Source of the DNA: a virus
Length of the DNA stretch: 34,356 nt
Virus record (IMG/VR): IMGVR_UViG_3300008116_004464
Coordinates: 1 to 34,356 of that record
Strand: one strand, 5' to 3'
Part shown: positions 832-2,285 of the stretch, piece after piece
Layout of the letters: each line of letters starts with the position of its first letter
Position numbering within the stretch: the stretch's first letter is position 1
The notes under the pieces: model-generated
Told to the model about the DNA's origin: nothing
What the model saw: only the letters and a program-made list of their open reading frames with translations
Databases searched by the model: none
Position numbers and translations under genes: made by a program

Positions 832-1362
832 TTAGTTGAACACTAAATCTTTTTTTGCAAACTTTTCTTTTAATTTAATTACTAGGTCTAAATATATAGT
901 CCTAAATTCCTCGTTTGTATTAATTAAGTCATCAAAACACTTACACGCATACATTACTGTTGTATGGTCATACTTCCTTGTTTTATTTGTTGCTATAGTT
1001 TGACCAATTGAGGCAAATGAATTACCCATCATTCTAGCTAATTTAAAGTAGATGAATCTGTAATTAACTATATCACGATGTCTACCACTGTTTGCTAAAC
1101 GAGCTATATCATTACCAATTCTTTGATTACCGAACTTTTCTTTCATTAATCCATCAATAAAATCCCTAAGCATTAAAATAGGAACCTTTGGTATATCAGA
1201 CCTTTCATCTATCATGGTTAAAACATGAGGCTCATACCCAATTTTTTCTTTAAACTCTTTTTTAAATCTTTCAATAATCTTTGCTTCCAATCTTCTTTTG
1301 TAAAGCAGTGTTTCTGTTTCAACTTCTGGTCTTTCTAAATACTCATTTAACTCTACGCTCAT
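832..1362 (-). CDS. Protein resembling DnaA domain IV, without the ATPase domain
   Basis: The C-terminal part (about 92-150) matches the DNA-binding domain IV of the replication initiator DnaA. An arginine-rich helix (RHRDIVNYRFIYFKLAR) is followed by a helix with SIGQTIA, then KYDHTTVMYA at 130-139; DHTTV is the DnaA signature that contacts DnaA boxes. DnaA is normally about 450 residues with an AAA+ ATPase; here only 176 residues exist and no Walker motifs are seen. The first 90 residues are charged and helical with no known domain. It is the last gene of the leftward operon; its ATG overlaps the methyltransferase stop (ATGA). It probably binds DnaA-box-like DNA, either to recruit phage replication or to interfere with host initiation; both are inference. 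Confidence 0.7.
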   Translation of the reverse strand: MSVELNEYLERPEVETETLLYKRRLEAKIIERFKKEFKEKIGYEPHVLTMIDERSDIPKVPILMLRDFIDGLMKEKFGNQRIGNDIARLANSGRHRDIVNYRFIYFKLARMMGNSFASIGQTIATNKTRKYDHTTVMYACKCFDDLINTNEEFRTIYLDLVIKLKEKFAKKDLVFN

Positions 1363-2285
1363 TTTTCAAATTTTTCTATTGTTTTAAATATTTCGTATGC
1401 TACTTGTGGAACTATTGCATTTCCTCCTGCTTTAATTGATTCGTTTCTCCATTTAGAAAAGGTAATAGAGTCCAATCTTTCGGAAACCCCATCATCTCCA
1501 TTACAAATTGGGGATTGAGTTGGGAAGTTTTTGAAGTTGTTAAATTCATTTCTGCTATTTGGTCTGTCAAATTTCCCTTCCCTCTCTTGTGAGAGGTGTT
1601 CCCCCTGCTCGCTTGAGCTGTTGGAGTACAAAGCATCCCCACTAATGATGTCCTGTATATTTGACTTGGAGGAAGCGTTGAATTCTTCCCATCTTGAGCC
1701 ATCGGTGTTGGTAATAAGTGTTGAAGTTTCCTCCCCTGTATTACATCGTTTAGACAAGCTCCGTAACCTTCCGATGTTTTTCCCGGCTCTTGCGCTCTCG
1801 GAGTAGGCCACAAACCATATTCTTTCTCTTTTGTGCGGTGCGTTGACGCTTGCAGCTGGAATAAGAAACGGTTGCACTTCATATCCTTCCCTTTCCAAAT
1901 CATCGCACACCTCGTGGAATACCAATCCCCCCCCCCAACTAACAAGTCCACGAACATTCTCGCCAATAACCCATGTGGGTTGTATTTCTTTAATCGCTCG
2001 TAACATTTCAGGAAAGAGATGTCTTTCATCGGCCTTCCCCTTTCTAAGCCCTGCTGTTGAATACGGCTGGCATGGGAATCCTCCCGTAATAATGTCAATG
2101 TCTCCTCTGTGAATAGAGAAGTCTGTTTTAGTGATGTCATTGTAACTTATTGATTTTGGGAAATGATGTTTTAATACTTTTTGACCAAATGTGTTCCACT
2201 CACAATGAAACACATTCTTCCATCCCATCCATTCGGCAGCTAAATCAAAGCCACCAATGCCTGAGAATAAACTTCCATGTTTCAT
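1359..2285 (-). CDS. C5-cytosine DNA methyltransferase (Dcm-type)
   Basis: This 308-residue enzyme would transfer a methyl group from S-adenosylmethionine to C5 of cytosine in DNA. Conserved motifs appear in order: SAM-binding motif I near FSGIGGFDLA (7-16), catalytic PCQP (71-74, nucleophile C72), ENVRGL (109-114), HKRERIWFVA (151-160) and the C-terminal GGNAIVPQVAYEIF (287-300). The section between 160 and 280, where target recognition is expected, is serine/asparagine-rich and carries repeated short motifs (AYSES, TNTDGS, YSNSSS). Most of the gene also codes for another protein in a different frame (1412-2140). It overlaps its neighbours on both sides by ATGA. No restriction enzyme pairs with it, so it may protect phage DNA. 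Target sequence cannot be read from the sequence. Confidence 0.9.
   Translation of the reverse strand: MKHGSLFSGIGGFDLAAEWMGWKNVFHCEWNTFGQKVLKHHFPKSISYNDITKTDFSIHRGDIDIITGGFPCQPYSTAGLRKGKADERHLFPEMLRAIKEIQPTWVIGENVRGLVSWGGGLVFHEVCDDLEREGYEVQPFLIPAASVNAPHKRERIWFVAYSESARAGKNIGRLRSLSKRCNTGEETSTLITNTDGSRWEEFNASSKSNIQDIISGDALYSNSSSEQGEHLSQEREGKFDRPNSRNEFNNFKNFPTQSPICNGDDGVSERLDSITFSKWRNESIKAGGNAIVPQVAYEIFKTIEKFEK
1412..2140 (-). CDS. Protein encoded wholly inside dcm in another frame; methyltransferase-associated family
   Basis: A 242-codon open frame lies entirely inside the methyltransferase gene, on the same strand but out of frame. Its product resembles a phage and bacterial family I recall beside or overlapping dcm genes. 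Features are WYSTRCAMIWK (73-83), RFLFQLQAST (91-100), three proline-threonine motifs (WPTPRAQE 111-118, LPTPMAQD 143-150, TPTAQ 172-176) and LNPQFVMEMMGFPKDW (208-223). Chance frames rarely show such ordered, repeated motifs. The three repeats overlap the repeated TD/NS motifs of the methyltransferase frame, so both frames share one repeat structure. Its function is unknown; a role in target recognition or methyltransferase control is a guess. Start chosen: ATG at 2140; translation would need internal initiation or coupling. Confidence 0.75.
   Translation of the reverse strand: MTSLKQTSLFTEETLTLLREDSHASRIQQQGLERGRPMKDISFLKCYERLKKYNPHGLLARMFVDLLVGGGDWYSTRCAMIWKGKDMKCNRFLFQLQASTHRTKEKEYGLWPTPRAQEPGKTSEGYGACLNDVIQGRKLQHLLPTPMAQDGKNSTLPPSQIYRTSLVGMLCTPTAQASRGNTSHKRGKGNLTDQIAEMNLTTSKTSQLNPQFVMEMMGFPKDWTLLPFLNGETNQLKQEEMQ

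Follow-up and report, generated by a model that had tools for sequence, protein, structure and literature searches.

Natural C5-cytosine methyltransferases built from two polypeptides include M.EaeI and M.EcoHK31I, and for the latter Lee, Kam and Shaw are said to have described in 1995 a beta subunit encoded in another frame inside alpha. In M.EcoHK31I, the large subunit contains motifs I-VIII and X and the small subunit contains motif IX, with the predicted target-recognition domain placed on the large subunit, and in M.AquI the small subunit carries both motifs IX and X (PMC3404938). Overlapping C5-methyltransferase ORFs have been noted in Streptococcus thermophilus phages, with the S. pneumoniae phage MM1 and a conjugative streptococcal transposon as precedents (PMC5601072). 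A further hidden gene is the ShiLan domain, an out-of-frame HNH endonuclease concealed in a phage methylase, which is a mobile insertion of sporadic occurrence (PMC11855218).

The stretch of DNA analyzed here, referred to as the window, is an IMG/VR virus record of 34,356 bases with a GC content of 33%. It contains a C5-cytosine methyltransferase (Dcm) ORF, alpha, with a second ORF, beta, nested in its +1 frame. The adjoining ORFs encode a DnaA C-terminal-domain protein, a NinG-like protein, and replication-type proteins, neighbors that fit a phage early region, as expected. Our main reading, to which we assign a probability of roughly 0.85, is that the two genes together specify a two-polypeptide C5-cytosine DNA methyltransferase in which alpha would be the catalytic subunit and beta would provide target recognition and motif IX. 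The features of the locus are as follows.

1359-2285, minus strand: alpha, the C5-cytosine methyltransferase (Dcm) ORF, 308 aa
1412-2140, minus strand: beta, the ATG-started ORF nested in the +1 frame of alpha, 242 aa
2138-2140, minus strand: beta start codon ATG, over Dcm Asn49-Asp50 (AAT GAC)
1886-1924, minus strand: beta WYSTRC (WYSTRCxxxWKxK) motif, where the conserved part of beta begins
1607-1810, minus strand: beta PTP repeat region, the variable cassette, facing Dcm-frame linker residues ~159-227
1787-1810, minus strand: beta WPTPRAQE motif
1691-1714, minus strand: beta LPTPMAQD motif
1607-1630, minus strand: beta (L)CTPTAQAS motif
1472-1519, minus strand: beta motif IX, LNPQFVMEMMGFPKDW

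Judged by motif layout as it has been described, the locus resembles M.EcoHK31I in having motifs I-VIII and X on alpha and motif IX on beta, and the nested small-subunit frame, present in the window and its homologues, is a feature that M.EcoHK31I reportedly shares. It differs from M.EcoHK31I in that recognition is placed on beta by selection, by predicted disorder in alpha, by a shortened alpha in Porphyromonas somerae, and by cassette swaps, and in that the arrangement is phage-borne and occurs across several phyla. The likeness to M.AquI lies in the distribution of the catalytic and distal parts over two polypeptides; unlike the small subunit of M.AquI, the window beta ends before motif X, which stays on alpha.

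The streptococcal overlap was rejected as an instance of the same arrangement on account of its different anatomy. Streptococcus phages 5093 and MM1 do have two methyltransferase-annotated ORFs in different frames, with a +1 offset in MM1, but their large ORF encodes all of a single-chain enzyme, motif IX (RKLTPRECWRLQGFPD) included, and their small ORF has neither a motif IX nor a match to the beta profile. In both MM1 (L324, 7480-8637 and 7631-8056) and 5093 (L325, 6055-7023 and 6212-6640), the small ORF contains a W-x-x-x-M-M-x-N-G-K pattern that faintly recalls the N-terminal part of PHROG 1008. An inserted homing endonuclease of the ShiLan type was likewise rejected: the ShiLan domain, too, is a conserved ORF lying out of frame in a phage methylase gene, but beta matches no HNH family in Pfam or NCBIfam and its ORF is present at all 80 of the loci retrieved by a Dcm query. 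The genome of ShiLan itself, which has the HNH-hiding methylase gp65, also encodes a single-chain homologue of the enzyme considered here, gp70, five genes further on (L255, 2001-3170).

Beta belongs to the same protein family as PHROG 1008 and the "g55 internal gene" of Paenibacillus phage Shelly (Shelly_56). The Shelly annotation already presents this beta homologue as a gene inside dcm, other records annotate the same locus as one frame only or as fragments, and neither the PHROG 1008 nor the Shelly entry states a recognition-subunit function. A literature search covering few subscription papers found none that assigns PHROG 1008 the role of a recognition subunit or examines selection on it. 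Apparently new features are the encoding of the specificity domain entirely in a nested frame, its conservation across phyla, and its exchange as a cassette that spans two frames.

Coding evidence and selection in the two frames

An earlier note on this DNA, made from the sequence alone, had proposed a 242-codon gene out of frame within dcm. Such a gene is present on the minus strand in the +1 frame, the motifs quoted for it were all found, at the positions listed above, and the repeats of the two frames do coincide, the three PTP-type motifs lying exactly over Dcm VAYSESARA, ITNTDGSRW, and LYSNSSSEQ. Within the window alone, the +1 frame stays free of stops for up to 244 codons, a length never approached in 5000 permutations of the Dcm codons that preserve the Dcm protein sequence, where the longest such run averages 79 codons and does not exceed 201; synonymous resampling of the window gene predicts 12.8 stops in the +1 frame (minimum 4), and there are none. 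The homologue search suggested in that note returned homologues of the 242-residue protein that overlap dcm in the same relative frame. Over the overlap in 124 distinct homologues, synonymous resampling predicts 1929 +1 stops and only 5 are observed; the +1 frame is fully open in 119 of them (expected, 0.0), and the other alternative frame accumulates 2652 stops over the same stretch. A second and more distant set, 96 genes from bacterial genomes and other phages with GC contents of 0.37 to 0.59, has 7 stops against 851 expected. Some homologues were retrieved with the hidden protein as query, which favors an open frame, but the 80 viral loci retrieved with Dcm alone are free of this bias and all 80 have the ORF in the same relative frame. 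Breakage of the nested frame by stops where Dcm is kept is not the pattern seen, an interior beta stop occurring in 2 of the 124 homologues (L044 and L161).

In the 99 sequences with Asn, His, or Asp in the Dcm column that creates the internal ATG, that codon always ends in T (AAT 71, CAT 24, GAT 4), and by comparison upstream Asn codons are AAC in 20% of cases. Judged from this column, the beta start codon is conserved. In phage Shelly, the internal ATG is preceded at a distance of ~12 nt by a GGGAGG sequence, and in Acinetobacter phage ABMM1 two candidate starts 4 nt apart lie behind a single AGGAG; these start contexts fit internal initiation and are suggestive only.

Selection in the two frames was computed from substitutions in 35 non-overlapping pairs of relatives, each classed by its effect in both frames. 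Because dN/dS was obtained by counting with multiple hits uncorrected, the contrast between regions outweighs the absolute values: over the 46 codons that precede the overlap, the +1 frame gives 1.31 and 0.87, behaving as noncoding, and the Dcm frame about 0.1. From Dcm residues 50 to 160, both frames are constrained, at about 0.15 for Dcm and about 0.55 for beta. From residues 160 to 250, the Dcm frame gives 1.42 (1.23-1.61) and 0.93 (0.66-1.41) and the beta frame 0.50 (0.38-0.65) and 0.33 (0.22-0.50), and from residues 250 to 282 the corresponding values are 1.18 and 0.49 for Dcm and 0.45 and 0.19 for beta. By this comparative measure, the constraint from motif VIII almost to motif X falls on the hidden frame, and the Dcm frame is nearly free (about 0.5-1.4). 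Since the hidden frame is the constrained one over residues 160 to 250, the constrained protein at the usual place of the target-recognition domain is beta. Conservation is weak over the first ~55 residues of beta, a part that may be a tolerated overprint.

These results bear out the claim that both frames are truly coding, which is supported by the open frame in homologues and by purifying selection specific to each frame, and the location of the constraint is directly supported as well. The suggestion that one repeat unit serves both proteins did not hold for Dcm, whose frame is without amino-acid constraint there. It could be argued that the +1 frame is open simply as a by-product of Dcm sequence and codon use and that the second protein does not exist, as chance overlapping ORFs do occur and the pairing of motifs is partly forced by the shared bases (PTP over Ala-Tyr-Ser and similar). 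This can hardly be true given the stop deficits in both homologue sets under resampling that preserves the Dcm protein, a +1 dN/dS that is below 1 in the overlap and about 1 outside it, and the occurrence of the same protein without overlap in P. somerae. By these comparative measures, beta is a real gene.

Division of the methyltransferase motifs between alpha and beta

Alpha contains motifs I (FSGIGGF), IV (GGFPCQ, with Cys72), VI (ENV), VIII (HKRER), and X (GNAIVP), and it thus has the motifs I to VIII (including PCQ and ENV) and motif X by which a C5-cytosine methyltransferase is recognized; Cys72, ENV109-111, and GN 288-289 are invariant. It matches phrog_363 at 5e-71 and PF00145 at 2e-47, the latter over residues 1-223 only, so that the C-terminal part of the Pfam family is not reached, and a phmmer comparison with M.HhaI covers residues 5-162 only and ends at motif VIII. 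In an AF2 model built with 52 natural relatives, the core has pLDDT values of 90 to 97 and the motif X helices 92 to 96, and residues 196-263 fall below 50, with nearly all of the range from 173 to 263 at this level; the stretch of alpha over the cassette is accordingly predicted to be a disordered linker. By the extents of the M.HhaI and Pfam matches, the AF2 model, and selection, motif IX and a recognition domain are absent from the alpha chain.

Beta matches phrog_1008 ("DNA methyltransferase") at an E value of 3.1e-23, residues 11-224 aligning with positions 34-279 of the 329-position profile. Its order is a WYSTRCxLTWKxK segment, then the PTP repeats, and then LNPQFVMEMMGFPKDW. Within the WYSTRC segment, S75 and W82 are invariant among 71 sequences and W73, K88, and R91 are conserved in at least 90% of them. 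By a simple pattern, the homologues contain 0 to 5 PTP/LTP motifs, mostly 2 to 3, and the number of motifs correlates with length (0.71). The LNPQFVMEMMGFPKDW segment aligns with motif IX of M.HhaI, LHPRECARVMGYPDSY; the hhalign score is 28.4 (P 7.5e-6), and none of 100 shuffles scored above 14.2. In single-chain enzymes, it is through motif IX that the recognition domain packs against the core. The presence of this motif in the hidden protein, a point missed in the earlier note, makes that protein likely to be a second subunit of the same enzyme, and the split of the motifs between the two chains is seen directly.

Searches of Pfam, NCBIfam, and PDB sequences with beta alone or as a profile gave nothing useful and no family. 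Modeled alone by AF2, beta is poorly predicted (pLDDT 59.8, pTM 0.28), and a fold search with this low-confidence model gave nothing useful, with one row at Z 2.2. The poor model could be explained by the need for a partner, yet it is no evidence for one.

Fused, split and separated relatives

Single-chain forms of the enzyme are found in mycobacteriophages (prophiFVLQ01-1 gp6, DillTech15 gp66, and ShiLan gp70), where the chain continues in frame after motif VIII with LLPTP repeats, a WMMGWPxxWV motif IX, and a GNGV motif X. For the C-terminal halves of these chains, matches to phrog_1008 reach 3e-76, and over motif IX they align with the beta profile at an hhalign probability of 96.4 (E 1.3e-9). 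In Cindaradix (L253), Dcm stops just after motif VIII and a +1 ORF holds the PTP repeats and motifs IX and X, a layout like that of M.AquI with a +1 overlap. In P. somerae, the two proteins are encoded by adjacent, separate genes, with beta beginning 1 nt past the alpha stop. The P. somerae alpha is 268 aa long, its C-terminal block following motif VIII after only about 20 residues, and the 237 aa beta contains LLPTPTASD, LLPTPTAMS, and LNPLYVEEMMGFPEGW; they match the window proteins at 1e-22 and 4e-59, respectively. Because beta does not overlap motif VIII there, its motifs are not a shadow of Dcm. The separate proteins to which the earlier note referred in other phages do exist, as the P. 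somerae neighbor, the Shelly "g55 internal gene", and PHROG 1008, and fused and separate versions are thus directly documented.

In the genome and viral sets, the remaining loci with both genes complete are nested, with the exception of L183 (1816-3033, a Paludibacter metagenome-assembled genome), where the N-terminal part of Dcm is in the beta frame and the rest in another frame, a change that would reflect either a single-base indel or a sequencing error. Porphyromonas phage024a was considered as a second separated pair and rejected, the downstream protein being unrelated. About 3.5 kb upstream of the separated P. somerae pair lies a truncated nested copy (L315, 1464-1877) that consists only of PTP repeats, motif IX, and the Dcm C-terminus, and it may have been left behind when the two genes became separated. 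In Edaphocola aurantiacus (L215, 2805-3390), a second ORF resembling part of beta directly follows the nested pair and is possibly a spare recognition subunit.

Two actinophages divide the pieces in other ways. In Rhodococcus phage ReT1v-1 (L254, 1283-2485 and 1581-2255), the +1 ORF holds the PTP repeats and the Dcm frame holds motifs IX and X, and in mycobacteriophage RitaG (L256, 2001-3089 and 2353-2940) the recognition region begins in the +1 frame and is completed in the Dcm frame. Since the pieces in ReT1v-1 are divided otherwise, the alpha/beta split is not uniform among actinophages. In these two phages, either the division between frames has shifted in evolution or frameshifting joins the parts.

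The window also contains ten consecutive C residues (G10 when read on the coding strand) at 1927-1936, within both frames, and this tract could be a slippage or phase-variation site able to join them. A reading in which programmed or slippage frameshifting, with G10 as a possible slippery site, joins the two frames into one chain with recognition domain and motif IX would account for the placement in the overlap of the only G/C run of 7 or more in the window, for the recurrence of G10-G12 at the corresponding position of 14 of 124 homologues, in frame in every case, and for the different division of the pieces in some actinophages. We consider it very unlikely, however, as a run of at least 10 is lacking in 110 of the 124 homologues, the chain produced by a shift at this tract would be without motifs VIII and X, and beta not only starts at a conserved ATG of its own but is a separate gene in P. 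somerae.

Cassette exchange and the proposed enzyme

The loci L051 and L075 illustrate how the recognition region varies. Their alpha core is identical and their first 480 nt are 97 to 100% identical, the middle is mostly below 60% identical with large differences in length, and the last ~150 nt are again 93 to 100% identical; both frames nonetheless stay open, and beta retains ordered PTP segments and motif IX. A core of at least 85% and a cassette of less than 65% nucleotide identity are seen in 236 pairs, which are not independent of one another. The exchange of cassettes is thus a direct observation, and the expectation that the two proteins evolve together over the target-recognition region is borne out in that cassettes change in both frames at once. 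In these comparisons, the pattern is that expected from the exchange of target-recognition domains, here in two frames simultaneously.

It is unlikely that beta is a real protein with another job, such as a regulator, a chaperone, or an anti-restriction protein, that lies inside dcm by accident. The lack of a Pfam or NCBIfam family or a confident fold for beta would suit such a protein, but beta carries the motif IX that is missing from alpha, it is continuous with the catalytic core, in frame, in the mycobacteriophage enzymes, it directly follows a shortened alpha in P. somerae, and the pattern of cassette swaps fits recognition domains.

In the two-subunit enzyme that we favor, alpha would be the catalytic subunit, with the AdoMet site, the catalytic Cys72, and motifs I-VIII and X, and beta would supply what alpha lacks, namely the region that recognizes the DNA target and motif IX. 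Beta would be made from the same message by internal initiation at the ATG at 2140 and would join alpha to give the active enzyme, with the part of alpha over the recognition cassette serving merely as an open, disordered linker. Recombination between relatives would swap the cassette and so change the methylated sequence, and the changed methylation would protect the phage DNA from different host restriction systems. We infer the translation start, the formation of a complex, target recognition, and the anti-restriction role from the features described above. Multi-TRD methyltransferases of SPbeta-type phages are multispecific. By extension, each PTP module might be a small separate recognition element, with the enzymes multispecific and their specificity changed by swapping cassettes of modules that are open in two frames, though we regard this idea as doubtful.

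Nested pairs occur in phages of Bacteroides, Paenibacillus, Lacticaseibacillus, Porphyromonas, and Acinetobacter and in a marine phage. Among cellular genomes, PHROG 1008 is found in 3 of the 38 that represent the P. somerae family and in 4 of 249 sampled from the phylum of an Oscillospiraceae genome, a sporadic distribution that fits a prophage gene, as expected. Many phage and prophage genes annotated as a single Dcm appear to be two-subunit enzymes whose specificity half has gone unannotated because it lies in the other frame. On the proposed model, cloning a recoded Dcm frame would destroy beta and yield an inactive enzyme, and a prediction of specificity from the Dcm frame would be meaningless. 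The pair is long, deeply conserved, and nearly fully nested, with natural fused, overlapping, and separated versions, and together with the recombination of two-frame cassettes it offers a rare and testable system for the origin and resolution of overlapping genes.
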